Shown: piece by piece, positions 31,701 to 50,439 of the stretch
Position numbering within the stretch: position 1 is the stretch's first letter
Layout of the letters: every line of letters starts with the position of its first letter
Assembly (NCBI GenBank): GCA_021785695.1
Contig: JAJYEQ010000008.1
Coordinates: forward strand, 1 to 64,000
Source of the DNA: Actinomycetes bacterium
Lineage (GTDB): Bacteria; Actinomycetota; Acidimicrobiia; Acidimicrobiales; RAAP-2
Length of the DNA stretch: 64,000 bases
Direction: 5' to 3'
Made by a program: the position numbers and the translations under genes
The notes under the pieces: generated by a model
Databases searched by the model: none
What the model was told of the DNA's origin: nothing
What the model saw: the letters and a program-made list of their open reading frames with translations, nothing else

Positions 31701-33131
31701 GTGAGCGCGCGGCCGTCGGTGGTCGTGGTCGGCGCTGGCCTGAGCGGGCTGGCGGCCGCCTGGGAGCTGAGCGGCGGTGCCCCGGGGGACCCCGACGCCC
31801 CCCGCATCGAGGTCCTCGAGGCCGCCCCCCGCGTCGGCGGGCCCCTGGTGCTGGGCGATCTCGACGGCCAAGCGGTGGACCTGGGACCCGACGGCTTCCT
31901 GGCGCGGCGCCCCGAGGCTCGCACGCTGATCGAGGAGCTGGGCCTCGGCGACGACCTGATCGACATCGGCGCCAGCGGGGCCTCGCTGTGGCTGCGCGGC
32001 GAGCTGCGCGCCATCCCGCGCAGCCTGGCTCTCGGCGTGCCGGCCTCGAGGGCGGCGCTGCGCGAGCTCGGCGGCCTGTCCTGGCACGCGCGGGTGGCCG
32101 CCTGGCGGGACTGGCTCGCGCCGCGGGCGCTGCACGTCGGTGAGGACGCGTCGATCGGCCAGATCGTGCGCACCAAGCTCGGCGACGAGATCGCCCGCAG
32201 CGTCGTCGAGCCGCTCGTGGGCGGGATCCAGGCCGGACGGATCGACGACCTGTCGGCGGCCGCCCTGCTCCCGGGACTGCTGGCGGCCGCCCAGCGTGGC
32301 GGCTCCCTCATGCGCGCCCTGGCCGCTGCGGCCCCTCCGCCGGCCCCCGCGGGGGCGTCGGGCCCGGCCTTCCACTCGCTGCGCGGGGGCCTGGGCGCCC
32401 TGCCCCAGACGCTCGCCGACCGGCTGGTCGCCCGGGGCGTCGTCGTGCGCACCGCCACGCCCGTCCAGGCCCTGCGGCGCGTGACCGGCGAGCACCCCCT
32501 GGTCGTCGAGACGGCCACCACGGCCACGCCCGCCGATGCGGTCGTCGTGGCCACGCCCGCCGCGGTGACCGCGGCGCTGCTGGGGTCCTGGGACCCGGAC
32601 CTGGCCGCCCTCGGCTCGATCCGCTACGCCGCGGCCGCCATGGTGAGCGCCTCGTACCCGGAGGCGACCGCGCCGCTGCCGGCCGGCACGGGGGTCCTGG
32701 TGCCCCTCGGCACCCCCTGGGCGGGCGGGGGAACCCTGATCGTCACGGCGCTGACGTTCCTCGACCGCAAGTGGGAGCCCCTACGCCAGCCCGGCCGCGT
32801 GCTGGTGCGCGCCCACGTGGGCCGCAGCGACGACCAACGCTACGCGGCCTTCGACGACGAGCACCTGGGCGCCCGGGTGGCCGACGAGATCGCGCTGGTG
32901 CTGGGCTGGTCGTCCCGGCCCACCGCGTCGCGCGTGCAGCGGTTCCTGCCCGGGCTGCCCCAGTACACCGTCGGGTACGCGGACCTGGTCGCGCGGGCGC
33001 GCGACGCCGCGGCGCGCGGCGGCGTCGACCTGGCCGGGAGCACCTACGACGGCGTGGGCATCCCGGCCTCCATCGGGTCGGGGCGCCGCGCCGCGCGGGC
33101 GGCCCTGATGCGCCTGGCCGCGCGGCCCTGA
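31701..33131 (+). CDS. hemY: Coproporphyrinogen III oxidase, HemY/CgoX type
   Basis: 476 residues. It is an FAD-dependent oxidase with dinucleotide-binding VVVVGAGLSGLAAAWEL at the N-terminus and a C-terminal FAD segment (GVDLAGSTYDGVGIPASIGSGRRAA). In actinobacteria this protein oxidises coproporphyrinogen III to coproporphyrin III, feeding CpfC. With hemE and hemH it forms a three-gene run; the final decarboxylase hemQ/chdC is not in the window. The GTG start lies within a repeated GCGTGAGC and follows hemH by 4 bases. Confidence 0.92.
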   Translation: MSARPSVVVVGAGLSGLAAAWELSGGAPGDPDAPRIEVLEAAPRVGGPLVLGDLDGQAVDLGPDGFLARRPEARTLIEELGLGDDLIDIGASGASLWLRGELRAIPRSLALGVPASRAALRELGGLSWHARVAAWRDWLAPRALHVGEDASIGQIVRTKLGDEIARSVVEPLVGGIQAGRIDDLSAAALLPGLLAAAQRGGSLMRALAAAAPPPAPAGASGPAFHSLRGGLGALPQTLADRLVARGVVVRTATPVQALRRVTGEHPLVVETATTATPADAVVVATPAAVTAALLGSWDPDLAALGSIRYAAAAMVSASYPEATAPLPAGTGVLVPLGTPWAGGGTLIVTALTFLDRKWEPLRQPGRVLVRAHVGRSDDQRYAAFDDEHLGARVADEIALVLGWSSRPTASRVQRFLPGLPQYTVGYADLVARARDAAARGGVDLAGSTYDGVGIPASIGSGRRAARAALMRLAARP

Positions 33132-33159
33132 GCCGACGAGCCACCCGCCGGGACTCTGG

Positions 33160-33165
33160 AAGACT
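33160..33165 (+). promoter_or_regulatory. Candidate leaderless -10 box of the lysyltransferase-like gene
   Basis: AAGACT, then GGACCG, then GTG at 33172. The first base differs from TANNNT but the 6-base spacing is kept and no Shine-Dalgarno is present. Confidence 0.4.
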
Positions 33166-33171
33166 GGACCG

Positions 33172-36153
33172 GTGGTCACCCCCGATCGCAGCACGATCCC
33201 CGTCCCCGTCGGCCGGCGGGTCTACGTCCTCAGCGACCTCTCCCTCTCGGCGACCTCCAACCCGGCGCGCCGCCCGGTGCGTGAGCTGATCGCGCTCCTC
33301 GGTGACCTCGACGAGCCGGCGCTCGTGGTGGTGGCCGGCAATCTCTTCGCGGCCAGCCCCGACGACCCGGCCGCGGCGGTGCGCGCGACGCTGCGCGCGC
33401 TGCCGACGCTGGTGAGCGCCCTGCGCTCGTACCTGGCCCAGCCCGAGCACCGCCTCGTCGTCCTGCCGGGCCACGACGACGCGTGGCTGGCCGACGACGC
33501 GGCAGCCGCCCCGCTCACCGAGCTGGGCATCGAGATCGTCCCCGAGCTGATGCTCCAGGTCGCCACGCACGACACCGTGCGCGACGTGGCCGTCGTGGCC
33601 GGGTGTCCGCCACCGATGATCGCCGACCTGGCCGAGCGCGAGCGGGTCGACGCCGGACACCTCGAGGACCCCGACGCCGTGGCCCGCCTGGCCGCCAGCC
33701 GCATGCTCTACCGGCGCCTGGGCGGGTGGCTGTGGCTCCCGGTCATCGCCGTGGTGCTGGCCGACCTGTCGAGTCTGATCGTGGCCCTGGCCAACCGGCT
33801 CACGCGCCACCACCTGCGCCTCGACCTGGAGGTCCACCTCCACCACCACAGCGGAAGCCTGCTGTTCACGCTGGTGACCACCGTGGTGGTGGTGGGCCTC
33901 GTCGAGGCGGGCATCGCCGCCCTGGCCGGACTGGTCGTGCGCCGGCGCTTCGAGCGCGGGGCCGCCGGGGCCCCGCCCCGGCCCCTCGACCCGCTGGCCA
34001 CGGTGAGCGTGGACGGCGTGGACGCCCTGGAGTTCGCCCGCCGCATCGTGGGGCGCGGCGGGGCCGGCGCCATCGTGGGGGGCGCCTCGGCGCCCGCCCT
34101 GGCCTTCTTGGACCGCGGCTTCTGCGCCGTGCCGGGACCGGCCCGGGCCACCGTCGTGGAGCGCCACGGCCGCTTCGGCCTGCCCCCGGTGTTCGTGCCC
34201 ACGGACCGCTGGAGCGTGGTCCAGCTCGAGGCCGGCGGCGCCGTCCACGTGCGCATGGTCGTGGGCCAGTCCCGGGCCCGCTACGGCACCTGGCTCGAGC
34301 GCCTGGTCGCGGCGGACCCGGCCCAGGTCGACGCCCCGAGCGCCACCACCGAGGTCGGGGCGTGGCCCGTGGGCGACCCCTATCCCATCGCCCCCGACGG
34401 GCTGGCCGCCCAACGCCGCCAGCGCACCGTGCGGCGCGTGATCAGCGGGTTGGTGCTCCTCGACGGCCTGATCGATGTGACCGTGACCACCCTGCCCCCG
34501 CTGCGCAGCCGCCTGCACGCCGTCGAGGCCTTCCTGTCGCTCGGGGCGGCGCAGTCGGCGGCCGCGCTCACCGCCCTGGCCGGCGTGGTCCTCATCATGG
34601 TGGCCCGCGGCCTGCGGCGGGGTCAGCGGCGCTCGTGGACGGTCGCGGTGGTCCTGACCGGCGCGACCACCCTGGCGCACCTGGCGCGCGCGGGCAGCCT
34701 GGTGAGCCCGGTGCTGGCCGTCAGCCTGCTGAGCGCGCTGCTGATCGAGCGGCGCCACTTCCGCGCGACGACCGACCGCGAGAGCCTGCGCCTGGCACTG
34801 CCCCGCCTGGCGCTCGTCGCGGTCCTCACCGTCGTGGGGGCGACCATCGGCATCGAGCTGTCGGCGCGCCGCAGCGTGCCCGGACTGCTCACCGTCCTGG
34901 TCGCGGTCCTCGAGAGGCTGATCGGCATCACCTCGGTCACTCTGCCCGACCGCGTCGGGGACTTCGCGACGCCCACCTTGGGTGCGGTCGGCCTGGGACT
35001 GATCGTCGTGGCGCTGTACCTGGTGACCCGCCCGGTCGTCGACCGCCGCCTCTCGCGCGCCTCGGGGCGCGAGCGGCGCCTGGCCGAGCTGCGGGCCCGC
35101 GAGATCGTGCGCCGCCACGGGCGGGGCACCCTCGACTACTTCTCCCTGCGCGACGACAAGCAGCTCTTCTTCTTCCGCGACTCGCTGGTCGCCTACGCCG
35201 TCTACGGCGGCGTCGCCCTGATCTCCCCAGACCCCATCGGGCCCACGGCCGAGCGCACCGAGGTGTTCCGGGCCTTTCGCGCCTACGCCGACGCCCGCGC
35301 CTGGACCGTGGCGGTCATGGGGGCGGGTTCGGACTGGCTGCCCGTCTACCACGCGGCGGGTCTCCACTCGATCTACCTGGGCGATGAGGCCATCGTCGAC
35401 TGCCAGCGCTTCAGCCTGGAGGGCCACAAGATGAAGGGGCTGCGCCAGGCCTGCACCCGGCTGGCCCGCAACGGCTACACCGTCGAGTTCCTGGACCCGG
35501 CCACAATCGATCCCCTGCGGGTGCCCGCCCTGGTCGACCTGATCGCCCTGCTGCGCCGCGGCGAGGGCGAACGCGGCTTCTCGATGATGCTGGGCCGGCT
35601 CTTCGACCCGCGCGACCAGGGCCTCTTGCTCACGGTGGTCTCCGACCCGACCGGGCGCCCGGCCGCGGTCTGCCAGTTCGTGCCCTCGCCGGCCATCGCC
35701 GGCTACTCGCTCGACCTGATGCGCCGGGACACGGGCGCGCACCCCAACGGGCTCCTCGACTTCGCCCTGTGCTCGACCATCGCCCACCTGCGCGAGCGCG
35801 GCGGGCGCGGCCTCAGCCTCAACTTCGCGGCCTTCCGCTCGGTGCTCGACGGGGAGCGCGGCGAGGGCACCTTCACGCGCATCGAGCGCTGGGGTCTGCG
35901 GCGGCTGTCGGGCATCTTGCCCATCGAATCCCTGTGGTCCTTCAACGCCAAGTACCAGCCCACCTGGCTGCCGCGCTACCTCGTCTACCCGGCGGCCGAG
36001 AGCTTCGTCCCGGTGGTGTCGGCCATCTTGCGGGCCGAGTCCATCACCGAGCTGCCCCTCATCGGGCGCTTCTTTGCCAATGACCCGGTGAACCGGCCCG
36101 GGACCATCGTGCCCGAGTCCGTCCTGGCCGCGGCGCGCGAGCGCTCCCGCTAG
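33172..36153 (+). CDS. Lysyl-phosphatidylglycerol synthase-like membrane protein with phosphoesterase-like N-terminus
   Basis: 993 residues. Residues about 10-150 resemble a calcineurin-type phosphoesterase, but the metal motifs are altered (LSDLSL, VAGNLF for GDLFD, PGHDDA for GNHDD). A membrane pair (about 183-260), a middle region and a cluster of about six helices (roughly 425-625) follow. The C-terminal third is the DUF2156 aminoacyl-transfer domain of MprF/LysX proteins (FRDSLVAYAVYGGVALISPDPIGP, LGDEAIVDCQRFSLEG, LNFAAFRSV, FNAKYQPTW). Those enzymes attach an amino acid from tRNA to phosphatidylglycerol, altering surface charge. No lysyl-tRNA synthetase domain is fused. Its stop shares CTAG with the convergent PAS gene. 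Confidence 0.83.
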   Translation: MVTPDRSTIPVPVGRRVYVLSDLSLSATSNPARRPVRELIALLGDLDEPALVVVAGNLFAASPDDPAAAVRATLRALPTLVSALRSYLAQPEHRLVVLPGHDDAWLADDAAAAPLTELGIEIVPELMLQVATHDTVRDVAVVAGCPPPMIADLAERERVDAGHLEDPDAVARLAASRMLYRRLGGWLWLPVIAVVLADLSSLIVALANRLTRHHLRLDLEVHLHHHSGSLLFTLVTTVVVVGLVEAGIAALAGLVVRRRFERGAAGAPPRPLDPLATVSVDGVDALEFARRIVGRGGAGAIVGGASAPALAFLDRGFCAVPGPARATVVERHGRFGLPPVFVPTDRWSVVQLEAGGAVHVRMVVGQSRARYGTWLERLVAADPAQVDAPSATTEVGAWPVGDPYPIAPDGLAAQRRQRTVRRVISGLVLLDGLIDVTVTTLPPLRSRLHAVEAFLSLGAAQSAAALTALAGVVLIMVARGLRRGQRRSWTVAVVLTGATTLAHLARAGSLVSPVLAVSLLSALLIERRHFRATTDRESLRLALPRLALVAVLTVVGATIGIELSARRSVPGLLTVLVAVLERLIGITSVTLPDRVGDFATPTLGAVGLGLIVVALYLVTRPVVDRRLSRASGRERRLAELRAREIVRRHGRGTLDYFSLRDDKQLFFFRDSLVAYAVYGGVALISPDPIGPTAERTEVFRAFRAYADARAWTVAVMGAGSDWLPVYHAAGLHSIYLGDEAIVDCQRFSLEGHKMKGLRQACTRLARNGYTVEFLDPATIDPLRVPALVDLIALLRRGEGERGFSMMLGRLFDPRDQGLLLTVVSDPTGRPAAVCQFVPSPAIAGYSLDLMRRDTGAHPNGLLDFALCSTIAHLRERGGRGLSLNFAAFRSVLDGERGEGTFTRIERWGLRRLSGILPIESLWSFNAKYQPTWLPRYLVYPAAESFVPVVSAILRAESITELPLIGRFFANDPVNRPGTIVPESVLAAARERSR

Positions 36154-37424
36154 AGCGCCGGGTCGGCCTCGGCGAGAACCGCGACGACCTCCCGGCGCCC
36201 ACCAGCGTCGACGGGGGTGGCGACGTAGCGCAGCGCTCGGGGCACCCCGTCGTCGGAGATCGTGCCGCGCCGCACCTCCCGGGCGTCGCCGGTCTCGGCG
36301 AGCCACGACCCGTCAACGGGGTCCGCCGCCACCAGGTCGGCGACACTGGCGTAGCCCAGCAGGGACGCCGCCCGGTCGTTGGCCTCGACGACGCGGCCGT
36401 CGGCGAAGACCACCATGGCGACCGCCTGCTGGTCGACCAGAGCCCGCCAGCGTGACACAGCGAGCTGGCGCTGCTGCTCGACGAGCTCGTGGGCCCGCAA
36501 CGCGGCGAAGCGGTCCAGGGCGAAGCTGACGTCACTGGCCATCTCGGCCAGCAGCGCGCCGACCGACTCGCCGAAGAAGTCGCTCTCGGCCGCGTAGAGG
36601 GTGAGGGCCGCCACCACTTCGCCGCCGCGCGCCAGCGGGAGAGAGACGGCCGAGCGCCAGCCCTGGCGCAGGCACGCCGCAGCCAGCGGGTCGAGCCCGG
36701 TGACCCCGATCTGGCGCACGGCGACGCGCCCGGTCACCGCGGCCTCGGCGGGCAGGTCAACGCCCGCGCTGGTTCCGTGGGCGAGCAGGTCGGCTCGCTC
36801 GGTGAGGAACGCGCGCAGGCCCTTGCCGGCGCGCGCCACAACCCGCAGGCCACCGGGCTCCACGCTCGCGACCCAGGCGGCCTGGGAGCCCACGCGCACC
36901 GCCGCGGTGCAGATCCGTCCGAACAGCTCCTCCTCGTTGGTGCTGCGGATGACCGCCTGGTTGCACTCGCTCAGCGTCGCGTAGAGGCGGTTCACGTGGG
37001 CCAGGTGGCTCTCGAGACGGTGCCGTTCGGTCACGTCGATGAGCGTCCCGCGCACCCGCTGGCCCTGGCCGCTAGCGTCGCGCTCGACCACGCGGCCGCG
37101 CACCCACAGGCAGCGGACCTGATCGGTCGGGTCAACGACCCGGAAGTCGAACTCGTACTCGTCGGGCCCGCCGGGGGCGACGGCGGCCTCGATGGTGGCG
37201 GCAATGCCGGCACGGTCCTCGGGGTGAGTGGCCGCGAGGAAGGTCTCGATGCGCCACGGCTCCTGCCAGTCGAGTCCGTAGAGGGTGTCGTGGTTCGCAC
37301 TGCGGTCCATGGTGTTGGTGCGGTAGTCGTACTCCCACACCGCCACGCCGGAGAACTGCGTAGCCAGGCTGAGCAGCTCGGGCGTCGCGCGCAGCTGACC
37401 GGGCTCGGGAGGGTGCGGGATCAC
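36150..37424 (-). CDS. PAS-GAF-PAS sensor protein without an output domain
   Basis: About 424 residues. There is a PAS domain with PAC tail (about 25-140: VAVWEYDYRTNTMDRS, then RGTLIDVTERHRLE), a GAF domain (about 150-305: LYATLSECNQAVIRSTNEEELF, then SAVSLPLARGGEVVAALTLYA), a short coiled coil, and a second PAS domain (about 325-424). No kinase, GGDEF, EAL or DNA-binding domain follows; the protein simply ends. It may act by partner binding. I prefer GTG 37424 over GTG 37433 because the -10 hexamer overlaps the latter. Confidence 0.78.
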   Translation of the reverse strand: MIPHPPEPGQLRATPELLSLATQFSGVAVWEYDYRTNTMDRSANHDTLYGLDWQEPWRIETFLAATHPEDRAGIAATIEAAVAPGGPDEYEFDFRVVDPTDQVRCLWVRGRVVERDASGQGQRVRGTLIDVTERHRLESHLAHVNRLYATLSECNQAVIRSTNEEELFGRICTAAVRVGSQAAWVASVEPGGLRVVARAGKGLRAFLTERADLLAHGTSAGVDLPAEAAVTGRVAVRQIGVTGLDPLAAACLRQGWRSAVSLPLARGGEVVAALTLYAAESDFFGESVGALLAEMASDVSFALDRFAALRAHELVEQQRQLAVSRWRALVDQQAVAMVVFADGRVVEANDRAASLLGYASVADLVAADPVDGSWLAETGDAREVRRGTISDDGVPRALRYVATPVDAGGRREVVAVLAEADPAL

Positions 37425-37431
37425 GGTCGGC

Positions 37432-37437
37432 ACTCTA
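37432..37437 (-). promoter_or_regulatory. Leaderless -10 box of the PAS-GAF-PAS gene
   Basis: TAGAGT, then 7 bases (GCCGACC), then GTG at 37424. The TAG is the stop codon of the upstream ATP-grasp gene. Confidence 0.5.
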
Positions 37438-38277
37438 TGCGGTCGTGCGCTCGGCGATCGCGGCGGCCAGCGCGTCGGCCGCGCCGGGGGCGTAGCCGAG
37501 GTACAGCATCGGCTCGACCAGCTCGAGCTCGAGCACCTGCCACGCCGCGTCGTGGGCCAGCAGGTCGACGCGGGCGTAGGCCAGGTCGTCGAACCCGAGC
37601 GTCTCGAGCACCGCGTCGCCGACCTCCCGCGCCGCCCCGTCGGCCCGGACCGCCCGGATGCCGGCGCGGCGCCGGGCCGGCGTGCGCTCGTGCTCGGCGT
37701 GGCCGAGCAGGGCGTCCTTGCGCACCGCGTGGGAGAACCGCCCCCCCAGGTAGATCAGGGCCAGCTCGCCGCGGGTGTCGACGCTGCCCCGGTAGGGCTG
37801 GACGATGGCGGCGGCCCCGCGGGCGTGGAGTGCCGCGGCGTGAGCTCGCGCCCCCGCCGCGTCCCGGGCGGCGAAGCGGGCCGCCCCCCGGGACCCGGCA
37901 CCGATCGCCGGCTTGACGACGACGTCGCCCGCAGGCCACGCCAGGGCCGCTCCCACCTCGAGGACGGTCGTCGGCACCGCGGGCAGGCCCCGGGCCGCCA
38001 GGTCCACCAGGTAGCGCTTGTCGGCCGAGTAGGCCAGCGCCCCGGGCGGGTTGAGGATGGCGCGCCGGGCTCGCGTCCAGGCCAGGAACGCGTCGGGCTG
38101 ACGCGTGTAGTCCCACGTCGAGCGCACGACCACCTGGGCGTAGTCGTCCCAGGGCACCGCCGCGTCACTCCACACCCGGGCCTGGCCCGCCAGCCCGTGG
38201 CGGGCCAGGGCGGCCACCAGGGCGGCCTCGTCGGGATCGTCAGCCCCGGGCGCCGTCGCGATCGCGACGGGCCTCAC
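37435..38277 (-). CDS. ATP-grasp enzyme of the STWDY type, coupled to nuoN
   Basis: 280 residues from GTG at 38277. VVVRSTWDY and FLAWTRARRAILNPPGALAYSADK near the start and VVKPAIGAGSRGAARF in the middle are the marks of an ATP-grasp subgroup with DcsG-like and glutathione-synthetase-like members; the C-terminal VLELELVEPMLYLGY would carry the Mg2+ ligands. Such enzymes join a carboxylate to an amine through an acyl phosphate. The substrate is unknown. The start overlaps the nuoN stop (GTGA), so it is read as the fifteenth gene of the nuo operon. Confidence 0.75.
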   Translation of the reverse strand: MRPVAIATAPGADDPDEAALVAALARHGLAGQARVWSDAAVPWDDYAQVVVRSTWDYTRQPDAFLAWTRARRAILNPPGALAYSADKRYLVDLAARGLPAVPTTVLEVGAALAWPAGDVVVKPAIGAGSRGAARFAARDAAGARAHAAALHARGAAAIVQPYRGSVDTRGELALIYLGGRFSHAVRKDALLGHAEHERTPARRRAGIRAVRADGAAREVGDAVLETLGFDDLAYARVDLLAHDAAWQVLELELVEPMLYLGYAPGAADALAAAIAERTTA

Positions 38278-39746
38278 GAGGTGAACAGGACCGTCGCGTG
38301 CTGGGCCAGGGCGGCCAGGGGACCGGGCCAGACGCCGAAGACCAGCGTCACGGCGACACCCACGCCGATGGCCACGGCCGTGGCCCGAGGCACCGGGATG
38401 CTGGCGGCACCCTCGGGGGACTCGGCGTACAGGACGATCGTCCAGCGCAGGTAGAAGAACGCCGCGATCGCCGCGCCGAGCAGGGCCAGCAGGGCCAGGG
38501 GGCCACCACCGCCATCGACCGCCGCCGCGAGCACCGCGAACTTGGCGTAGAAGCCCGTCGTCAGGGGTGCGCCCAGCTGGCTCAGCAGCAGGATGCCGAG
38601 GGCCGCGCCGAGCCACGGCTGGCGCCGGGCCAGGCCCCGGTAGGAGTCGACGGTGTGGCGCTCGTCGCCCGGGCCGCCCACCAAGGTGACCACCGCGAAA
38701 GTGGCCACCACCACCGGCGCGTAGGTCGCCAGGTAGAAGAGGGAGGCCGCCGAGCCGCGCGCGCTGGCCGCCCACACGCCCAGGAGGATGAAGCCCGCGT
38801 GGTTGATCGACGAGTAGGCCAGCATCCGCTTGGCGTTGCGCTGGACGATGGCGAGTGAGGCGCCCACGATCGTGGTCAGGACCACCAGGGCCCACAGGAT
38901 GGGTCGCCAGGTCGTCATCTGCGTGCCCAGGGCCGAGATCAGGACACGGATCAGGGCGGCGAACGCCCCGACCTTCACGACCGCGGCCATGTAGCCGGTC
39001 ACCGGCGTGGGCGCGCCCTCGTAGACGTCGGGCGACCACTGGTGGAACGGCACGGCGGCGACCTTGAAGGCGAATCCGACCAGCAGCAGCGCCCCGCCCG
39101 CGTAGAGCAGGCCGGGGCGCAAGATGACGTTGGTGCCCAGGAAGTAGGACACCGTCGACAGGTTGGTCGAGCCGGTCGCGCCGTAGACGAGGGCCGCGCC
39201 GTAGATGAACAGCGCCGAGGCGAACCCGCCCAGCAAGAAGTACTTCAGGGCCGCCTCGGAGGACGCCCCGCGGTGGCGGTCGAAGGCCACCAGCACGTAC
39301 AGGCCGATCGAGAGGGTCTCGAGCCCGAGGAAGATCACGATGAGGTCGTTGGCCTGCGTCATCAGGACCGCGCCGGCCGCGGTGGCCATCGCCAGGATGT
39401 GGTACTCGGCGCCCCGCACGCCCTCGCGGTGGAACCAGTCGTGGGCGACGAGCGTGGCCAGCCCCAAGGAGACGGCGATCACCGCCGAGGCCACCACCGA
39501 GAAGCCGTCGAGCACGACGGCGTGGGCGATCGTGGTGGAGGGGCCGTAGCGGTCGATGTTGGCCCACTGGAAGAAGCCGGCCGCGAAGGCGCCGGCCGCG
39601 GCCAGCAGGGTGATGCCCGTGGCCACGGTGGTGCGCAGGGCCCCGCGCACCAGCGCGGTCAGTGCGAGCAGCACGACCGCGCCGCCGAACAGGATCAGGA
39701 CCGGCAGGATCGCCAGGTAGTGGATCGAGGGGATGGTCAGGCTCAC
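38274..39746 (-). CDS. nuoN: NADH-quinone oxidoreductase subunit N
   Basis: 490 residues, about fourteen membrane helices; antiporter-like proton-pumping subunit of complex I. KYFLLGGFASALFIYGAAL and LAYSSINHAGFILLGVW are family signatures with the key Lys and the broken-helix region. The ATP-grasp gene follows with a 4-base overlap, and nuoM precedes with the same overlap. Confidence 0.96.
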   Translation of the reverse strand: MSLTIPSIHYLAILPVLILFGGAVVLLALTALVRGALRTTVATGITLLAAAGAFAAGFFQWANIDRYGPSTTIAHAVVLDGFSVVASAVIAVSLGLATLVAHDWFHREGVRGAEYHILAMATAAGAVLMTQANDLIVIFLGLETLSIGLYVLVAFDRHRGASSEAALKYFLLGGFASALFIYGAALVYGATGSTNLSTVSYFLGTNVILRPGLLYAGGALLLVGFAFKVAAVPFHQWSPDVYEGAPTPVTGYMAAVVKVGAFAALIRVLISALGTQMTTWRPILWALVVLTTIVGASLAIVQRNAKRMLAYSSINHAGFILLGVWAASARGSAASLFYLATYAPVVVATFAVVTLVGGPGDERHTVDSYRGLARRQPWLGAALGILLLSQLGAPLTTGFYAKFAVLAAAVDGGGGPLALLALLGAAIAAFFYLRWTIVLYAESPEGAASIPVPRATAVAIGVGVAVTLVFGVWPGPLAALAQHATVLFTS

Positions 39747-41239
39747 TTGGTCACCCCCGCGGGCGTCACGCTCTCGACGAACTGGTGGGCGGTGGGCGTC
39801 ACGCGGTCCAGGACCGGCTTGGGAAAGATACCCAGGACGACGACGATCGCCACGATCGGGGCGATCACCCAGCGCTCACGGTGCGTCACGTCGGGCACCT
39901 GGTCGATGTCTCGGGCCTGGCCGTGGAAGACCCGCTGGTAGGCCCACAGCAGGTAGACGGCGGCTAGCACCACGCCGATCGTGGCCGCGACCGCCCACCA
40001 GACGTGCGTCGAGAACGCGCCCACCAGCACGAGGAACTCGCTGATGAAGCCCGACAGCCCGGGCAGCCCGATCGAGGCCATCATCACCACGGTGAACAGG
40101 CCCGCGAGCACCGGGGCCGGACCCTGCATCCCGCGCAGGTCGGCGATGGTCGCGCTGCCGCGGCGGCGCTCGATGTACCCGATCAGCAAGAAGAGGCCGG
40201 CCGTGATCACCCCGTGGTTGAACATCAGCAAGACGGCACCGGTGGTCGCGATGGTCGAGCCGGTCATGATGCCCAGGGTCACGAAGCCCATCTGGGCCAG
40301 GGACGAGTAGGCCACCAGCCGCTTCAGGTCCGGCGTGGTGGCCGCCAGGGCCGAGCCGTAGATGATGCCGATCACCGCCAGGGTCAGCATGTAGGGGCGC
40401 ACCGTCGACAGCGCCAGGGGCAGCAGCCCGACCGCGAAGCGCAGCAGGCCGTACGAGCCGAGCTTGGCCAGCAGGGCCGACAGCTCCATCGAGCCGGCGG
40501 TGGGGGCCTCGGCGTACACCAGGGGTGACCAGGTGTGCAGGGGCCAGATCGGCGACTTGACCCCGAAGGCGATCGCGAAGGCCACGAACAGCCAGACGGC
40601 GGTCGCGTGGCTCATCGACGTCGAGGCCAGCGCGGCGTCCGCGAAGGTCAGCGGGCCGCCTACCTGGTGCTGGTGGAGGAAGCCCAGGTACAGCAGCCCG
40701 GTGAACAGGAACGCCGAGCCGGCGAAGGTGTACACGAAGAACTTGAGCGCCGCCCGCGAGCGCTGGGCGCCGCCCCAGTGGGCCACCAGGAAGTAGCTGG
40801 GCACCAGGGTCAGCTCGAAGAAGATGAAGAACTCGAGCAGGTCGCGGGCCACGAAGCTGCCCATCGTGAACGTGGTCAGCATCAGCAGCCAGCTCACGAA
40901 CGCGGCCTCGCTGCGCTTCTCGCGCGCGCCGAGCAGCGCCAGGAGCACGACGAGTGCGGTCAGCACCACCAGCAGCAGGGAGATCCCGTCGATGCCCACG
41001 TCGTAGGCCAGGCCGAAGGGCGCGGCCAGCACCCAGCGGCCCACGAAGTCGAAGGTGTGCGCCCCGGCCAGGTGGTCGTTGTAGAGCACCGCCACGACGA
41101 GCGACACCGCGAGCTCGACGCTGGCCGTGGCCACGGCCACCGCGAAGGGCGCGCCGGGCCGACGACGGGCCAGCAGGGCCGCCGCAGCGCCGAGGAGCGG
41201 CAGCCACACCAGCACGGTCAACCAGAGTGAAGAGTGCAT
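39743..41239 (-). CDS. nuoM: NADH-quinone oxidoreductase subunit M
   Basis: 498 residues, about fourteen membrane helices. The conserved Glu of FFELTLVPSYFLVAHWG and the Lys in RAALKFFVYTFAGSAF are visible, as is LVAYSSLAQMGFVTLG. It is an antiporter-like pump module of complex I. ATG at 41239 follows the nuoL stop by 2 bases. Confidence 0.96.
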   Translation of the reverse strand: MHSSLWLTVLVWLPLLGAAAALLARRRPGAPFAVAVATASVELAVSLVVAVLYNDHLAGAHTFDFVGRWVLAAPFGLAYDVGIDGISLLLVVLTALVVLLALLGAREKRSEAAFVSWLLMLTTFTMGSFVARDLLEFFIFFELTLVPSYFLVAHWGGAQRSRAALKFFVYTFAGSAFLFTGLLYLGFLHQHQVGGPLTFADAALASTSMSHATAVWLFVAFAIAFGVKSPIWPLHTWSPLVYAEAPTAGSMELSALLAKLGSYGLLRFAVGLLPLALSTVRPYMLTLAVIGIIYGSALAATTPDLKRLVAYSSLAQMGFVTLGIMTGSTIATTGAVLLMFNHGVITAGLFLLIGYIERRRGSATIADLRGMQGPAPVLAGLFTVVMMASIGLPGLSGFISEFLVLVGAFSTHVWWAVAATIGVVLAAVYLLWAYQRVFHGQARDIDQVPDVTHRERWVIAPIVAIVVVLGIFPKPVLDRVTPTAHQFVESVTPAGVTK

Positions 41240-41241
41240 AG

Positions 41242-43113
41242 CTATCCGACCCTCGCCACGAGATACACGACCACGACGCTGACGCCCAGGACCATGGCCA
41301 GCGCGTAGTGGCGCGCGAAGCCCGACTGCGCCTTGCGCAGCCCCTCGGCACTGCGACGCACGCCCCCGGCCACCGCGCCGACGGCGCCGTCGATGATGCG
41401 GGGCTCGACGACGGTGTCACCGATCTGCGCGGCCCGCGTCAGGGGGCGCCCGATGGCGGCGTCGTAGGCATCATCCCAGCGCCACACGCGTTCCAGGAAG
41501 GTGCGCTCGTAGATCGGGGAGCTGACGCGGTTGCGCCAGATGGAGAAGGCCGCGGCCAGGCCCAGCAGAGCCGCCACCACGTCCACGCACGCCAGGGTCA
41601 CCTGGGCGACGGTCGACGCGTGGGCGGTCAGGGGCAGGTAGCCGAAGGTCGGGTTGAGGAAGCCGGCCAGCGAGTTGTGGTGGATCCAGGGCAGGTCGAT
41701 CACGCCGCCCACGGTGGTGAGCACGGCCAGGATCACCAGCGGCACGGTCATGACCCAGGGCGACTCGTGGGGGTCGTGCCCGTGGGTCACCTCGCGGAAG
41801 CGCTCGGTTCCCCGGAAGGTCAGCACGAACAGCCGGCTCATGTAGTACGCGGTCAGGATCGCCGTCAGCACCCCGAGCAGCCACAGGGGCTTGGAGTACG
41901 CGTAGGCGTTGGTCAGCACGTCGCCCTTGGCCCAGAAGCCGGCGAAGGGCGGGATGCCCGAGATGGCCAGCCAGGCGATCAGGAAGGTCGGGAAGGTGAG
42001 GGGCAAGAAGCGGGCCAGTCCCCCCATCTTGCGCATGTCCTGCTCGCCGTCGAGGGCGTGGATCACCGACCCCGATCCCAAGAACAGCAGGGCCTTGAAG
42101 AAGGCGTGGGCGATCATCAGGAAGATCGCCGCCGAGTAGGCGCCCGCCCCGACGGCCAGGATCATGTAGCCGATCTGGGACACCGTCGAGAAGGCCAGCA
42201 CCTTCTTGATGTCGCGCTGGGAGGTGGCGATCGTCGCGGCCACGAAGGCGGTCACGCCGCCGATGATCGCGACGGTGGCGCGACCCGAGCTCGACAGCGC
42301 CAGCACCGGCGCCATGCGGGCCAGCAGGTACACGCCCGCGGTCACCATGGTGGCCGCGTGGATGAGGGCGGACACCGGGGTGGGGCCCTCCATCGCGTCG
42401 GGCAGCCAGTTGAACAGCGGGATCTGCGCGCTCTTGCCGGTCGCGGCCAGCAGCAGGGACAGCACGACCACGGTGGCGGCCACCGAGGTGAGCGTCCCGG
42501 CACGGTTGAAGATCGTCAGGTAGTTCAGCGTGTGCAGCCGGCTGAAGAGCAAGAACATCGCCACCAGGAGCCCGACGTCGCCGATGCGGTTGTAGATGAA
42601 CGCCTTCTTGCCGGCCGTGGCCGCGCTGTCGCGGTCGAAGTAGTAGGCGACCAGCCAGTACGAGCACGCGCCCACGCCCTCCCAGCCCACGAAGGTGAGG
42701 ACCAGGTTGTTGGCCAGCACCAAGGTGAGCATCGAGAAGACGAAGAGGTTCAGGTACACGAAGAACTTGCGGAAGTCGCGCTCGCCGTGCATGTAGCCGA
42801 TGGAGTACAGGTGGATCAGGGCGGAGATCCCCGTCACGAACAGGGCCATCGTGACCGACAGGGGGTCTACGAGCAGCGCGGCCGACACGTGCAGTCCGCC
42901 CACGTCGAACCAGGTGAACATGGTCACGGTCACCTCGCGCGCGTTGCGCGAGAGCAGGTCGAGGTAGCTGACCACGGCGAAGACGAAGCTGAGGGCCACC
43001 GCCCCGGTCCCGATGGAGCCGATGGCGCGCTCGGAGAGCCCCCGGCCGAACAGCAGGATCACCAGGAAGCCCGCCAGGGGCAGCAGCAGGATCAGGGTGG
43101 ACACGTGCGCCAT
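41242..43113 (-). CDS. nuoL: NADH-quinone oxidoreductase subunit L
   Basis: 623 residues, the largest membrane subunit with a distal antiporter-like channel and C-terminal lateral helix. VGWEGVGACSYWLVAYYF carries the functional Glu; KKAFIYNRIGDVGLL and LLAATGKSAQIPLFNWLPDAMEGPTP (given here in part) are family hallmarks. The last 80 residues are less conserved. It is read directly behind nuoK. Confidence 0.95.
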   Translation of the reverse strand: MAHVSTLILLLPLAGFLVILLFGRGLSERAIGSIGTGAVALSFVFAVVSYLDLLSRNAREVTVTMFTWFDVGGLHVSAALLVDPLSVTMALFVTGISALIHLYSIGYMHGERDFRKFFVYLNLFVFSMLTLVLANNLVLTFVGWEGVGACSYWLVAYYFDRDSAATAGKKAFIYNRIGDVGLLVAMFLLFSRLHTLNYLTIFNRAGTLTSVAATVVVLSLLLAATGKSAQIPLFNWLPDAMEGPTPVSALIHAATMVTAGVYLLARMAPVLALSSSGRATVAIIGGVTAFVAATIATSQRDIKKVLAFSTVSQIGYMILAVGAGAYSAAIFLMIAHAFFKALLFLGSGSVIHALDGEQDMRKMGGLARFLPLTFPTFLIAWLAISGIPPFAGFWAKGDVLTNAYAYSKPLWLLGVLTAILTAYYMSRLFVLTFRGTERFREVTHGHDPHESPWVMTVPLVILAVLTTVGGVIDLPWIHHNSLAGFLNPTFGYLPLTAHASTVAQVTLACVDVVAALLGLAAAFSIWRNRVSSPIYERTFLERVWRWDDAYDAAIGRPLTRAAQIGDTVVEPRIIDGAVGAVAGGVRRSAEGLRKAQSGFARHYALAMVLGVSVVVVYLVARVG

Positions 43114-43114
43114 C

Positions 43115-43420
43115 TCAGCCCTTCATCTCGGAGAGTTCGTCCACCGAGGTGGAGGACCGGCGGCGAAAGACCGTGACCACGATGCCGAGCCCGACGGTGA
43201 CCTCGGCGGCCGCGACGACCATCACGAAGAAGACGGCGGCCTGGCCGCCGATGTCGCGCAGGGTGCGCGCGAAGGTCACGAAGGTCAGGTTCACCGCGTT
43301 CAGCAGCAGCTCCAGGCACATGAAGATGATCAGTGCGCTGCGCCGGGTCAGGAGCCCGAAGGAGCCGATGCCGAAGAGCACCGCCGCCAGGACCAGGTAC
43401 CAGGCTGCCGGGACGTTCAC
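43115..43420 (-). CDS. nuoK: NADH-quinone oxidoreductase subunit K
   Basis: 101 residues, three membrane helices, Mrp/MnhC-like. The conserved Glu of [15 protein letters not shown] and the second Glu in [13 protein letters not shown], both in the proton path, are present. GTG at 43420 overlaps nuoJ by 4 bases. Confidence 0.95.
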
Positions 43421-43986
43421 GCCTCCCCCTCTCGATCCATGCGCCGCTCGCGCCGCGCCAGCAGCACCGCGCCCACGACCGCGATGATGAGGAGCGCGGC
43501 CGTGGCCTCGAAGGCGAACAGGTAGGTGGTGAAGACCGCGGTGCCCACGGCGCGCACGTTGCCCGCGCCGCCGGGCGTCGGGTGGCCCGAGGTCGACACG
43601 GCGATGGCGCCGGTGACCCAGTGCGAGGACGCCAGCAGCGCCACCAGGCCCCCGATGGTCACGACCACGCCGACGCCGGCCAGGGCCCGCTGGCCGACCA
43701 ACGGCTCGACGCGCACGGGGTCGGTGCGGTCCACGCCGAGGAACATGATCACGAACAAGAACAGCACGACGATGGCGCCGGCGTACACGATGATCTGGAC
43801 CACGGCCAGGAAGTCGGCGGACTGGGCGACGAACGCCACCGCCACGCCGAAGAGCGTCAGGATCAGGCTGAGGGCCGCGTGCACGGGATTGCGCACGGCC
43901 AGCACGCCGATGGCCCCGGCCAGGATCATCAGCGCCGCGACCACGAACGCGAGGATGTCGGGAATGGCGTAGGCAGCGCCGATCAC
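43417..43986 (-). CDS. nuoJ: NADH-quinone oxidoreductase subunit J
   Basis: 189 residues, five membrane helices. [20 protein letters not shown] and [19 protein letters not shown] are signature helices. The soluble loop and tail are short. Both ends overlap neighbours by 4 bases. Confidence 0.95.
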
Positions 43987-44726
43987 AGCTGGCCTCCCTT
44001 GATCGCGCGCCAGGCCGCGATGCGACCGCGCAGCCCGCGCACCCCGTCGGGCAGGTCCTGGGGCACGATGTGGCGGAAGAAGGCGGTGCGCAGTGGCTTG
44101 GAGCCCGTCGCGGCGTCATCGCGCTGCTCGGACTGGCCGCCCTCGGGTGCCCGCACGCCGACGCCGAGGTCGCCGGTCCACTGGACCACGCCCTCGTAGT
44201 CGGCGGCCCCCGAGGGCGAGGTGGCGCGCATCCAGCCACCGGTCATGGCGTCCTCGCCCTCGCGCCAGTCCTCCCACGGCAGGCGTTGGGGCCGGCCCTC
44301 GTCGTCGACTAGGAGCTCGGCCTTGGTGTAGATGGCGTCGGCGCGGTTGGAGAACGAGAACTCGAAGAGCTTGGACTCGGTGATCGCCTGGGTGGGGCAC
44401 GCCTCCACGCACATGTCGCAGTGGATGCAGCGCAGGAAGTTGATCTCGTAGACGTAGCCGTAGCGCTCGCCCGGCGACACCGGGTGGTCCGGCGGGTTGT
44501 CCAGCCCGCGCACGTAGATGCAGTCGACGGGGCAGACCCCGGCGCACAGCTCGCACCCGATGCACTTCTCGGAGCCGTCCTCGTAGCGGTTCAGGACGTG
44601 CCGGCCGTGCTGGCGCGGCTGCTTGGGCCGCTTGGCGTCCGGGTAGGCGGTGGTCACCCGGACGCGCCCCATGTGGCGCAAGGTGATCTTGAAGCCACCG
44701 AAGAAGTCGAGTGGTCCGGCCATCAC
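43983..44726 (-). CDS. nuoI: NADH-quinone oxidoreductase subunit I with long C-terminal extension
   Basis: 247 residues. The two [4Fe-4S] sites are [16 protein letters not shown] and [16 protein letters not shown]; they hold clusters N6a and N6b on the way to quinone. The ferredoxin fold ends by about residue 150 and roughly 90 further residues follow, acidic then basic, longer than in typical bacterial NuoI. Start is GTG 44726 or ATG 44723, both overlapping the nuoH stop. Confidence 0.94.
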
Positions 44727-45955
44727 TCCCCCTCCCGGTCCGTGAACGCGCGCAGCACCCGACCGGGCAGGGGGCGCTCACCGACCGCCGGCAGGAGGGA
44801 GTCGGCGCCCTCCAGGCGCCGCTCGCCGATGGTCACCGTACGCGAGAGCAGGGTCCAGGCCAGGATCACCAGTGCGGCCATGAGGAAGCCCCACGACATC
44901 TTGATGAGGAAGCCCGCGACGATCAGCATCCACCCCAGGCTGAGCGGGATGAGGCGCTTCCAGCCCAGGTCCATGAGCTGGTCGTAGCGGAAGCGCGGGA
45001 GGGCGGCGCGGAACCAGATGTAGGAGAAGGCGAAGAACACCGTCTTGATCAGGAACCACAGGATCGGGAAGACCCAGCGCAGGTGCGGGACGTTGGGCAC
45101 CCAGCCCGCCGGCCCGCCCAGGAACAGCGTCACGATGACCGCCGACATCGTGATGGTGTTCATGAACTCGGCCAGGTAGAAGACGCCGAAGCGGAACGAG
45201 GAGTACTCGGTGTGGAACCCGCCGACCAGCTCGGTCTCGGCCTCGACCACGTCGAAGGGCGGGCGGTTCAGCTCGGCGGTGATCGCGATCAGGAAGACGA
45301 CGAAGGGCACCACGCCCAGGCGAATCAGGTTCCAGTGCCAGATGCCGTGCGCCTGGGCGGCCACGATGCTCTGGGTCGACAGCGAGCCCGTAGCCAGCAC
45401 CACGGTGACGATGGTCATGCCGAGCGCCGCCTCGTAGCTGATCATCTGGGCGCTCGCGCGCACCGCGGACATCAGCGGGTACTTGGAGCCCGAAGCCCAC
45501 CCGGCCAGGACCACGCCGTAGACCGAGATGCCCGACATGGCCAGCATCAGCAGCACGCCGACGGGCGGGTTGGCGATCTGGAGCGTCACGGGGTGCCCGG
45601 CGATGTGCACCGTGCCGCCCACGGGCACGATCGCGAAGGTGACCAGGGCCGGGATCAGCGAGAGGTACGGCGCCAGCTTGTAGGTGAACCGGTCCGCCTC
45701 GGCGGGCACCAGGTCCTCCTTGACGATCAGCTTGAGGCCGTCGGCCAGCGTCTGGAAGAGCCCGAAGGGACCCCAGCGGGTCGGGCCGAGGCGACTCTGC
45801 ATGTCCGAGATCGCCTTGCGCTCGAACCAGATCATGATCGTCACCGCGCCCATCAGCACGGCGAAGCCCACCAGCATGCGCACCAGCACGATCACGACGA
45901 CGGCCAGGGTCAGGCCGTGGGCGTAGATCGGGTCCACGACCGAGGCCAACATCAT
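44723..45955 (-). CDS. nuoH: NADH-quinone oxidoreductase subunit H
   Basis: 410 residues, eight or so membrane helices forming the quinone-chamber entry. WFERKAISDMQSRLGPTRWGPFG near the start (shown here in part), LNRPPFDVVEAETELVGGFHTEYS (in part) with its conserved acids, and WFRAALPRFRYDQLM are all family signatures. A C-terminal soluble tail of about 40 residues follows. Overlaps nuoG and nuoI by 4 bases each. Confidence 0.95.
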   Translation of the reverse strand: MMLASVVDPIYAHGLTLAVVVIVLVRMLVGFAVLMGAVTIMIWFERKAISDMQSRLGPTRWGPFGLFQTLADGLKLIVKEDLVPAEADRFTYKLAPYLSLIPALVTFAIVPVGGTVHIAGHPVTLQIANPPVGVLLMLAMSGISVYGVVLAGWASGSKYPLMSAVRASAQMISYEAALGMTIVTVVLATGSLSTQSIVAAQAHGIWHWNLIRLGVVPFVVFLIAITAELNRPPFDVVEAETELVGGFHTEYSSFRFGVFYLAEFMNTITMSAVIVTLFLGGPAGWVPNVPHLRWVFPILWFLIKTVFFAFSYIWFRAALPRFRYDQLMDLGWKRLIPLSLGWMLIVAGFLIKMSWGFLMAALVILAWTLLSRTVTIGERRLEGADSLLPAVGERPLPGRVLRAFTDREGE

Positions 45956-48516
45956 CGCGTCTCCAGTCGGACCTGGGCCACGGTCGCGCCCTCCTCGATC
46001 ACGTCGGCGAGGATGTCGTCGCCGTCGAAGGTCCCGGTGGCGCCGTCCAGGCTCACGACGCCACGCGGCAGCCCCTCGTCAATGCGCACCCGCAGGGCCG
46101 TCCGGCGGGCGACGCCGCGCACCGCGACCTCGTCGCCCGACGCCAGGCCGAGCCGGTCGGCGTCGGTGGGGTGCAGGCCGAGCGTCAGTGGCACGCGCAG
46201 CTCGGCCAGGGCCGGCGACGCGGCCAGGGCGGCCCCGTGGTCGTAGAGGCGTCGGGCGACCAGGACGCGCCAGGCGTAGGCGTCGAGCGGCGGCACGGTG
46301 ACCTCGGCGATCGCCACCTGGGCGAGCGCCGGCACCACGTTGCCTCGCGCGTCGGCCTCGACGTCGAGGGACAGCGTGTCGCCGGCGAACGACGCCAGCC
46401 CCACGGCGTCGGCCGAGCGGATGCCCGGGAAGGCGATCGGGTCGAGCACCCGGCGCGACGAGGTGGCACCGGTCCCGGCCACGACGCCGTCGATGCTCGC
46501 GCTGGTCAGCACGGTGTGTGCGGGATAGCCCGTCGTCCGCTCGATGACGGCGGCGGCGGCCTCAGCCGTGTCGTAGTCGAGCGCCTGACCCAGCTCGGTG
46601 GCCAGCTCGGCGGCGATGGTGACATCGGACCAGGCGGCGCCCGGCGCGCTGATCTTGGCCACCACGGCGCTGACCCGACCCTCGAGGTTGGTCACGGTCC
46701 CGCTGCGCTCGTGCTGGACGTGCGCGGGCAGCACGACGTCGGCGTAGGCCAGCGTCGGCGACCCGTGTCCGGTCACGGCGACGACCGCCGCGGCCTCCAG
46801 GGCCGCCGCGGCACCCTGGCGATCCAGGACGTTGCCCACCAGGTCGGCGCCCAGGAGCAGCACGGCGCTCTGCTCGCCGCGCCGCAGCGCGTCGAGCTGC
46901 GCGAGCGTGTCGCGCCCCCGGGCCGAGGCGTCATACACCCGTCCGGGACGCCACTGGGCCGCCAGACCCATGTCGAGCGCTCCGCGCACGTTGCCGCGAC
47001 GCAGCGCCACCAGGAACCGGGCCTTCGGCAGTCCCGTCGCCAGCCGGAGGGCAGCTCGCTCGGCGATGCCGGGATGCTCGGCGAGGTTCGGCCGTCCCAC
47101 CACGACCACGACGCCCTCCCCGTCGCCCAGGAGCTCGCGCGCGGCGCTCACGGCGTCGGCGCCGGCGGGACGTGCCGCGTCGACCAGGGCGCTGGCGATG
47201 TCGGCGGCCTCCCCGGGCACCACGGGAATCACGACCCGGGCCAGCGACCGCAGGGCACTGGGTCCCGAGGCCAGCTCGATCAGAGCGGTGCGGCCCGCGG
47301 CGACACCCTCGCGCAGGCGCAAGAACATCACGGGGAGCTCCTCGCGCAAGTCGCCCGTCAGGGTCACCACGACACGAGCGGCGGCCGCGTCGTCGATGGT
47401 GGCCGCCGGCAGGGACTGGACCAGCGTGGGATCCAGGCCGTCGCCGTACTGGGCATCCAGGTGCGGGCTGCCCAAGACGTCACGCACCACCTGCTGCCAG
47501 GCGAAGGCGCCCTCGTTGGTCAGCGCGGCGCCCCCAATGGCGCCCACGCCATCGGGACCGGGTGCGCGCAGCAGCGCGGCCGCCCGGGCCAGGGCGTCGC
47601 CCCAGGTCGTGGGGACGAGCCCGCCGTCGCGGCGCACCAGGGGGGTGGTGATGCGGGCTCGGGGGTCCAGGGGGTCGGCGCGGTCGGCGTGGCCGTCGAT
47701 CGCGTCGAGGGTGAAGCGACCCTTGTCGCACAGCCAGCCGTGGTTGACGGCGTCGCTGTCCACCCCGAGCACGCGCGTGAGGCGGTTGCCGCTGGACTGG
47801 ACGGCCACGCGGCAGCCCACCGCACAGGTCGTGCAGGTGCTCTCGACCTGGGCCAGGTCCCAGGGTCGCGCGGTGAACCGGTACGGCCGCGCCGTCAGCG
47901 CGCCCACCGGGCAGATCTGGACGGTGTTGCCCGAGAAGACCGAGTCGAAGGGCTGCGTCGGGCTGGTCGCCACCTCGATGAGGTCACCGCGCCCGGCGAA
48001 GTCGATCTGCGCGTCGCCGGCGACCTGCGCGGCAAAGCGCGTGCAGCGCGAGCACTGGATGCACCGCTCGCGGTCCAGCAGCACCAGCGGGCCGATCTCG
48101 ACGGGCTTGACGAAGTGGCGCTTCTCCTCGATGAAGCGGGTCTCCCCCGACCCGTGGGCCAGGGTCTGGTCCTGCAACGGGCACTCGCCGCCCTTGTCGC
48201 ACACCGGGCAGTCCAGGGGGTGATTGGCCAGCAGGAACTCCAGGACGCCGTCTTGGGCCTTCTTGGTCTTGTCCGAGTCGGTCCTCACCACCATGCCGTC
48301 GTTGACTCGCACGAAGCAGGAGGGCTGCAGCGTGGACCCGCGCGGGCTCTCCACCTCGACCAGGCACATGCGGCACACCCCCACGGGCTCCATGCGCGGG
48401 TGGTAGCAGAAGCGCGGGATGAAGACGCCGGCGTGCTCGGCGGCCTCGATCAGCAGCTCGCCGGGCCGGGCCGCGACGACGCGCCCGTTCAGGGTGATCG
48501 AGATGGGCTCACTCAT
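45952..48516 (-). CDS. nuoG: NADH-quinone oxidoreductase subunit G
   Basis: 854 residues. The N-terminal [2Fe-2S] ferredoxin domain has CRMCLVEVE with an upstream Cys; the His/Cys site follows, with CPVCDKGGECPLQD and RCIQCSRCTRF, then a 4Fe-4S site in CTTCAVGCRV of the molybdopterin-oxidoreductase-like part (about 215 onward). That C-terminal region is a non-catalytic remnant fold in complex I. It overlaps nuoF by 8 bases. Confidence 0.94.
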   Translation of the reverse strand: MSEPISITLNGRVVAARPGELLIEAAEHAGVFIPRFCYHPRMEPVGVCRMCLVEVESPRGSTLQPSCFVRVNDGMVVRTDSDKTKKAQDGVLEFLLANHPLDCPVCDKGGECPLQDQTLAHGSGETRFIEEKRHFVKPVEIGPLVLLDRERCIQCSRCTRFAAQVAGDAQIDFAGRGDLIEVATSPTQPFDSVFSGNTVQICPVGALTARPYRFTARPWDLAQVESTCTTCAVGCRVAVQSSGNRLTRVLGVDSDAVNHGWLCDKGRFTLDAIDGHADRADPLDPRARITTPLVRRDGGLVPTTWGDALARAAALLRAPGPDGVGAIGGAALTNEGAFAWQQVVRDVLGSPHLDAQYGDGLDPTLVQSLPAATIDDAAAARVVVTLTGDLREELPVMFLRLREGVAAGRTALIELASGPSALRSLARVVIPVVPGEAADIASALVDAARPAGADAVSAARELLGDGEGVVVVVGRPNLAEHPGIAERAALRLATGLPKARFLVALRRGNVRGALDMGLAAQWRPGRVYDASARGRDTLAQLDALRRGEQSAVLLLGADLVGNVLDRQGAAAALEAAAVVAVTGHGSPTLAYADVVLPAHVQHERSGTVTNLEGRVSAVVAKISAPGAAWSDVTIAAELATELGQALDYDTAEAAAAVIERTTGYPAHTVLTSASIDGVVAGTGATSSRRVLDPIAFPGIRSADAVGLASFAGDTLSLDVEADARGNVVPALAQVAIAEVTVPPLDAYAWRVLVARRLYDHGAALAASPALAELRVPLTLGLHPTDADRLGLASGDEVAVRGVARRTALRVRIDEGLPRGVVSLDGATGTFDGDDILADVIEEGATVAQVRLETR

Positions 48517-49813: not shown

Positions 49814-50439
49814 TACGAGGCCTCCGACGCCGCGGCCTCGCGGGCCTCGCGCTCGGCGCGCGCCTGGGCGCGCTCCTCGGCCAGCTCGGCGGCGCCGACC
49901 CGCAGCCCGCCCGAGCGGCGCACGCGGATCAGCGTGCCGTGCGGCGGGATGTCGTGGTCGCGGCGCCCGGCGCGCAGGTCCTCGACCAACCGGTCGAGCT
50001 CCTCGGGCGTGGTGGCGTGCACGTAGCGGTGGTTGACCTGCACGGCGGGCGCGATGTTGCAGTCGGCCAGGCACTCGGTCTCCTCGAGGGTGAAGAGGCC
50101 GTCGGCGCTGGTGTGGCCGACCTCGCAGCCCAGCGTGCGGCGCGCGTGCTCCAGCAGATCCTCGCCTCCGGCGAGCAGGCACGCGATGTTCGTGCAGACG
50201 CCCACCACGTAGCGGCCCACCGGCTCGAGGTGGAACATGTCGTAGAAGGCCGCCGTGCCCCGGACCTCGGCCGGCGTGGTCCCGGTCAGCTCGGCGACCT
50301 CGGCCATGCCGGCGTCGCTCAGGTACCCGTCTTGCTCCTGGGCCAGGTGCAGCAGCGGCAGCATCGCCGAGCGACGGCGCGGGTACAGCGACACCAGCTC
50401 CTCGGCCCGCTGGCGGATGTCACTGCGGAAATAGGTCAT
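49813..50439 (-). CDS. nuoE: NADH-quinone oxidoreductase subunit E
   Basis: 208 residues. A thioredoxin-like [2Fe-2S] protein: ligands lie in VCTNIACLL and ECLADCNIAPAV (cluster N1a). The tail of about 45 residues is Ala/Glu/Arg-rich and probably extends as a helix. ATG at 50439 overlaps the nuoD stop (ATGA). Confidence 0.95.
   Translation of the reverse strand: MTYFRSDIRQRAEELVSLYPRRRSAMLPLLHLAQEQDGYLSDAGMAEVAELTGTTPAEVRGTAAFYDMFHLEPVGRYVVGVCTNIACLLAGGEDLLEHARRTLGCEVGHTSADGLFTLEETECLADCNIAPAVQVNHRYVHATTPEELDRLVEDLRAGRRDHDIPPHGTLIRVRRSGGLRVGAAELAEERAQARAEREAREAAASEAS

Follow-up and report, generated by a model that had tools for sequence, protein, structure and literature searches.

The operon for respiratory complex I has, in its canonical form, 14 genes, nuoA to nuoN. 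Among described ATP-grasp enzymes, the closest to the protein considered here is DcsG, the D-cycloserine synthetase (PDB 6jil), followed by a wider group that includes RimK, LysX/ArgX and glutathione synthetase. No description of a ligase gene paired with nuoN was found in the passages retrieved from the open-licence literature: PMC3578206 mentions nuoN and ATP-grasp in unrelated places, PMC12243394 has them on separate lines of an expression table, PMC9765450 names DcsG as a fold relative together with its 2020 reference, and PMC6814805 contains a gene list naming Rv1455, and in none of the four does the passage concern the pairing. The new element reported here is a nuo operon that, in several genera of one family, carries a DcsG-like gene as its fifteenth cistron.

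The window, by which we mean the whole stretch of 64,000 nucleotides analysed (contig JAJYEQ010000008.1 of assembly GCA_021785695.1, from a member of the Acidimicrobiales), resembles the canonical operon in having the full set of nuoA to nuoN in order. All 14 genes lie on the minus strand: nuoA (52839..53219; PF00507, with a match that begins near 53219 within a longer open frame and a start codon left unassigned), nuoB (52276..52839), nuoC (51785..52279), nuoD (50436..51788), nuoE (49813..50439), nuoF (48509..49813) and nuoG (45952..48516), all by Pfam; nuoH (44723..45955; PF00146); nuoI (43983..44726), assigned by its Fer4 domains and position; nuoJ (43417..43986; PF00499); nuoK (43115..43420; PF00420); nuoL (41242..43113; Pfam and NCBIfam); nuoM (39743..41239; Pfam and NCBIfam TIGR01972, with an ambiguous start codon for which the script prefers 41221); and nuoN (38274..39746; TIGR01770, E = 1.8e-115, and Pfam). 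Overlapping genes are the rule throughout this operon. The window differs from the 14-gene arrangement in adding a further overlapping cistron that encodes a soluble ligase. Because nuoA to nuoN are all present, ordered and on one strand, the description of this cistron as the fifteenth gene of the nuo operon, given in the first-pass annotation, is correct.

The ligase gene (37435..38277, minus strand) encodes 280 amino acids from a GTG start to a TAG stop with no internal stop codon; the first-pass annotation had placed it at these coordinates but had given no strand. Its start codon and the nuoN stop codon (TGA) share the four bases GTGA (38274..38277, minus strand), as had also been noted earlier. 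We sampled 60 relatives, 36 of the same genus and 24 from other families of the order. All 36 same-genus genomes have the ligase directly behind nuoN with the 4-base overlap, which reads GTGA or, in four of them, ATGA; this count includes two loci (L066 and L069) where the script chose a later ligase start but an in-frame GTGA is nevertheless present. Such conservation of the overlap is more than chance. A promoter and terminator scan of positions 36000-38600 gave no promoter-like site, and no terminator-like site at the joint between nuoN and the ligase gene. Judged from the arrangement of the sequence, the ligase gene would belong to the same transcription and translation unit as nuo, and the conserved overlap supports the earlier proposal that it is translated with complex I. 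We also observed that NuoN ends in proline in 34 of the 36 NuoN proteins called in the genus loci (L031-L074), whose codon shares its last base with the opening base of the ligase start codon, whereas NuoN of the window itself terminates in serine.

Downstream, a gene for a PAS-GAF-PAS protein (36150..37433, minus strand; Pfam) starts two bases past the ligase stop and may be a sixteenth nuo cistron. It is present in a minority of relatives: the same cluster recurs at 5 of the 37 genus loci and also at L135, and tblastn matches were found in L048 and L074. The Pfam scan shows no output domain in this protein. Beyond it, an mprF-like gene (33172..36153, plus strand; PF09924) is convergent with the ligase gene and is a frequent neighbour outside the unit, occurring in 29 of the 37 genus loci; in several loci it is followed by a gene for a HAD-type phosphatase. 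In two genomes (G881 and G885) the nuoN-ligase pair is present and the downstream stretch read has no mprF-like gene. An antisense frame (32743..36306, minus strand), considered as a downstream gene, was rejected, having no Pfam match and being the reverse of the mprF-like gene; the D1 matches at relatives' loci are therefore read as mprF. A PADLOC search gave no match at E <= 0.01.

The ligase protein matches no Pfam family at E <= 1e-3, the RimK-type and glutathione-synthetase-type models included. In NCBIfam it matches DcsG (NF058666; E = 8.3e-59), with a score of 199.1 bits that lies well below the curated equivalog cut-off of 360, and in a sequence search of the PDB the only match at E <= 1 was DcsG 6jil (E = 2.7e-32). 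An AlphaFold2 model built from 55 aligned proteins (mean pLDDT 95.9) shows a predicted ATP-grasp fold across the whole chain; a Foldseek search with this model placed DcsG 6jil first (E = 1.8e-26, TM 0.87), and VIA-align gave DcsG a Z of 35.6 over 277 residues at 35% identity, the next chain being ArgX (Z 22.8). Below ArgX the structural list has RimK (Z ~22), LysX, glutathione synthetase, D-Ala-D-Ala ligases and synapsins at Z of about 20-23; RimK, LysX/ArgX and glutathione synthetase thus share the ATP-grasp fold with the window ligase but are only 15-19% identical to it. The label "ATP-grasp" in the first-pass annotation was therefore right despite the silence of Pfam.

Residues K87, Y89, K122, E171, K187, R236, D238, E250 and E252 are present in all 52 nuo-linked rows and in 108-111 of the 111 others. 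We take K87, K122, K187, D238, E250 and E252 to be the expected ATP and Mg residues of the ATP-grasp fold. DcsG shares the fold over its full length and the conserved lysines and acidic residues. At six other positions DcsG departs from the residue that the family conserves: it has T, W, F, T, Y and C in place of D56, Y57, W67, N76, G128 and Y234, respectively, which 50-52 of the 52 nuo-linked rows and 102-111 of the 111 remaining homologues retain. On the predicted structure, we conclude that the window protein is an ATP-grasp member of a DcsG-like family, a claim distinct from its being DcsG itself.

We then asked how widely the arrangement is kept. Among 170 genomes of the window's family, 118 (representing 10 of 21 genera) carry the ligase, and 106 of these, from seven genera, have it directly behind nuoN; ten have it on a different contig from nuoN and two were unreadable. 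In the window's genus, 91 of 92 carriers have it directly behind nuoN, the exception (G982) having a contig break inside the gene. These 91 comprise 37 loci that were read, the window included, 9 + 42 placed by match coordinates and three contig-broken cases (G962, G985 and G990) read individually. In the other six genera the gene is behind nuoN in 15 of 16 carriers (g26, 5/5; g27, 2/2; g368, 5/6, with G917 unreadable; g371, g375 and g376, one each), and in the copies read from the family outside the genus, the script puts the gap between nuoN and the ligase gene at -4 to +8 bases, with the mis-called L218 omitted. The ten carriers with the ligase on a different contig belong to three further genera (g28, seven; g367, two; g363, one), and the five of these loci that were read contain no nuo gene. 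The first-pass annotation had proposed a survey of the genomes that keep this gene behind nuoN, and had held that an association limited to one or two genomes would speak against it; with 106 genomes in seven genera, the pairing is real and old.

The ligase was not found in 52 of the 170 family genomes, 47 of them outside the genus. In two of these 47 (G280 and G326) nuoN was looked for; it is present in each, with other genes after it. The remaining five belong to the genus (G218, G940, G979, G984 and G986) and also lack a nuoN match at E <= 1e-60, so that among 97 genus genomes none with a nuoN match lacks the ligase. Gene loss was rejected for G218: as nuoL lies only 1.6 kb from the contig start, nuoN falls off the contig end. 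G940, which is 97% complete, has neither a nuoN nor a ligase match, by assembly break or by joint loss.

The reading we prefer, to which we assign a probability of roughly 0.62, is that the gene encodes a carboxylate-amine ligase for a small substrate, which was captured as the last nuo cistron and has since been translated with complex I. ATP would phosphorylate a carboxylate of the substrate and an amine would attack the acyl phosphate to give an amide; the substrate would most likely be a small amino-acid-like molecule, common to the whole ligase family. The gene would have landed directly after nuoN, its start codon placed at the nuoN stop or within it, in an ancestor shared by part of this family of Acidimicrobiales. 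It would have become captive there, because its own promoter or ribosome site could then be accommodated only within nuoN: nuo transcripts would carry it, re-initiation would provide its translation, and its dose would therefore follow that of complex I without its being a complex I factor.

The sequences of the pair bear on this history. In a quick tree, a single reconstruction with many weak forks, 19 of 21 nuo-linked rows group together (SH-aLRT 85), two (L144 and L217) are placed apart with weak support, and DcsG lies in another part, near Lysobacteraceae proteins, also with weak support; a single origin of the nuo-linked copies is compatible with this tree. One homologue (L155), from a record titled as a Bifidobacterium breve metagenome-assembled genome (MAG), groups with unclassified actinobacterial MAGs, and its label may be wrong. 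Across 35 of the 37 genus loci (L050 and L058 were left out), ligase and NuoN distances are correlated (r = 0.66; none of 2000 permutations was as high), as would be expected under joint vertical inheritance. One close pair was compared, the window and L135; there the ligase has a dN/dS of 0.225, against 0.138 and 0.139 for NuoN and mprF, respectively. In this pair the values indicate purifying selection on a ligase which is nevertheless evolving faster than its two neighbours. Only a single position (W246 versus P) passed the criterion for a nuo-specific change. Beside a conserved lysine, however, the consensus of group A1 (34 of 42 rows nuo-linked) is EYS.DKHYL and that of group A2 (10 of 55) is RWNTDKRYL, and because of this difference some change in specificity is possible.

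Capture is further suggested by the independence of the ligase family from nuo elsewhere. In the first sample, a homologue is present in 8 of the 24 genomes from the order's other families, with no nuoN match within the 10.6-12 kb read. Of 46 same-class carriers from outside the family, 43 proved to have nuoN, and none has it on the ligase contig at a distance of 80 kb or less; in 14 same-class loci outside the family with a called nuoN, genes other than the ligase come after it. Of 148 candidate loci outside the genus, 12 were excluded because they are nuo-linked or, in two cases (L142 and L166), presumed to be. The remaining 136 include 108 with a called ligase gene and 28 without one, whose neighbours were unread. 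At the 107 non-nuo loci with a readable upstream neighbour, this neighbour falls into 76 different clusters and is never nuoN. It is on the same strand in 57 of the 107 and, in 35, ends within 30 bases of the ligase gene. These other copies are thus not always solitary, which counts against capture, as do the position of L144 and L217 outside the main nuo-linked group and the A1/A2 difference. In one genome of another class of the phylum (G366, locus L292), the homologue lies downstream of nuoN with three genes between, one of them antiparallel; we judge this proximity, by estimate, to be within chance for about a hundred genomes.

The rival we take most seriously, which we regard as possible but clearly less probable than capture, is a functional coupling to nuo through metabolism: the ligase would make a small molecule for which demand scales with aerobic respiration, such as a redox buffer, a protectant or a quinone- or heme-related metabolite, and the enzyme would never touch complex I. 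We scored complex I by a NuoH match at E <= 1e-80. In a phylum sample of 396 genomes (92 carriers of the ligase and 304 non-carriers), NuoH is present in 89 of the carriers and 196 of the non-carriers; in an order sample of 178 genomes around Demequina sediminis (88 and 90), the corresponding figures are 66 and 27, all of these being raw counts that ignore phylogeny and lifestyle. This enrichment is in keeping with metabolic coupling and weighs somewhat against capture; however, it may merely reflect aerobic lineages. The ligase family at large is not confined to genomes with complex I, as 22 of the 88 carriers in the order sample and 3 of the 92 in the phylum sample lack NuoH at this threshold, assembly gaps being possible; one of the three (G584) has a weak NuoH match only. 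In a set of 18 named carriers, the NuoH match is strong in 17 and only weak in one, a Curtobacterium (L172). The idea that complex I is absent from Demequina and Cellulomonas was rejected, as those tested have NuoH.

Metabolic coupling also finds some support in respiratory neighbours at other loci. In Mycobacteriaceae and Pseudonocardiaceae the homologue lies between a quinone-oxidoreductase-like (qor-like) gene and ctaA, with ctaB near; in Blastococcus and Modestobacter mqo is two genes beyond the homologue; and in Arenimonas a gene for an ETF-quinone oxidoreductase is near it. These contexts were, however, picked by eye, with no chance level, from neighbours that are highly varied. At the mycobacterial loci drawn (L185, L196, L283, L287, L294, L295 and L309), ctaA (heme A synthase) is antiparallel to the homologue, and so, in most, is the qor-like gene on the other side; there is no shared operon in these loci, because the ligase gene runs against both neighbours. 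Rv1455 is presumably the M. tuberculosis member of the family. A more specific proposal, that in this lineage the ligase is a respiratory partner whose amide-linked small molecule tunes or protects the quinone/NADH end, the neighbours in mycobacteria, Geodermatophilaceae and Arenimonas being echoes of this role, seems to us unlikely.

Less likely again is a dedicated complex I factor that in this lineage attaches an amino acid or a peptide to one of the Nuo subunits or to a cofactor. The overlap with nuoN is conserved and the pair is kept across seven genera, and the structural list contains RimK in a structure that includes RpsF, the protein it modifies, and ArgX together with LysW. Nevertheless, the predicted structure is much closer to DcsG than to RimK, the conserved residues are not nuo-specific, and the family occurs without detected NuoH, just as complex I occurs without the ligase in the window's own family (G280 and G326). 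The C-termini of the 14 Nuo subunits of the window share no tail, NuoF and NuoH ending in Glu. The suggestion in the first-pass annotation that the enzyme could modify a respiratory subunit is thus unsupported: nuoN is upstream at none of the 107 loci elsewhere, a quarter of the order-sample carriers lack NuoH, and the closest structure is that of a small-molecule ligase.

It is improbable, too, that the gene is a purely neutral passenger, kept merely because its deletion would disturb nuo. Gene overlaps are common in this operon and this is a small gene at its end, which would suit such a passenger; but a last cistron should be easily lost, and yet it accompanies every nuoN match in the genus, its residues are conserved and the one dN/dS estimate points to constraint. 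Retention of the pair in seven genera, including the two genomes without the mprF-like gene downstream, likewise exceeds what a neutral passenger would need, and this also sits uneasily with capture in its simplest form. Of the earlier suggestion of an accidental passenger, the chance capture is probably right, whereas the long retention speaks against a mere passenger. Finally, a true D-cycloserine synthetase serving antibiotic biosynthesis would account for DcsG being the best match in both NCBIfam and the PDB, but the score far below the equivalog cut-off, the six residues that differ and the weakly supported separate position in the tree, together with an operon partner that is nuo, make this highly implausible.

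We therefore return to the captured small-molecule ligase. What favours it in the sequences is that the family appears to be independent of nuo, with many different upstream neighbours and with carriers that lack NuoH, and that nuo-linked and other copies conserve the same residues. Homologues of this ligase occur in 92 of 396 genomes sampled across the phylum, and in one lineage of this actinobacterial enzyme family expression has apparently been welded to that of complex I. The linkage to nuo offers a handle on when the product of the ligase is needed. Should that product turn out to have a respiratory link, it would count as a new metabolite or factor of respiration; otherwise the locus would be a clear example of how a start codon overlapping a stop codon lets an operon capture a metabolic gene.
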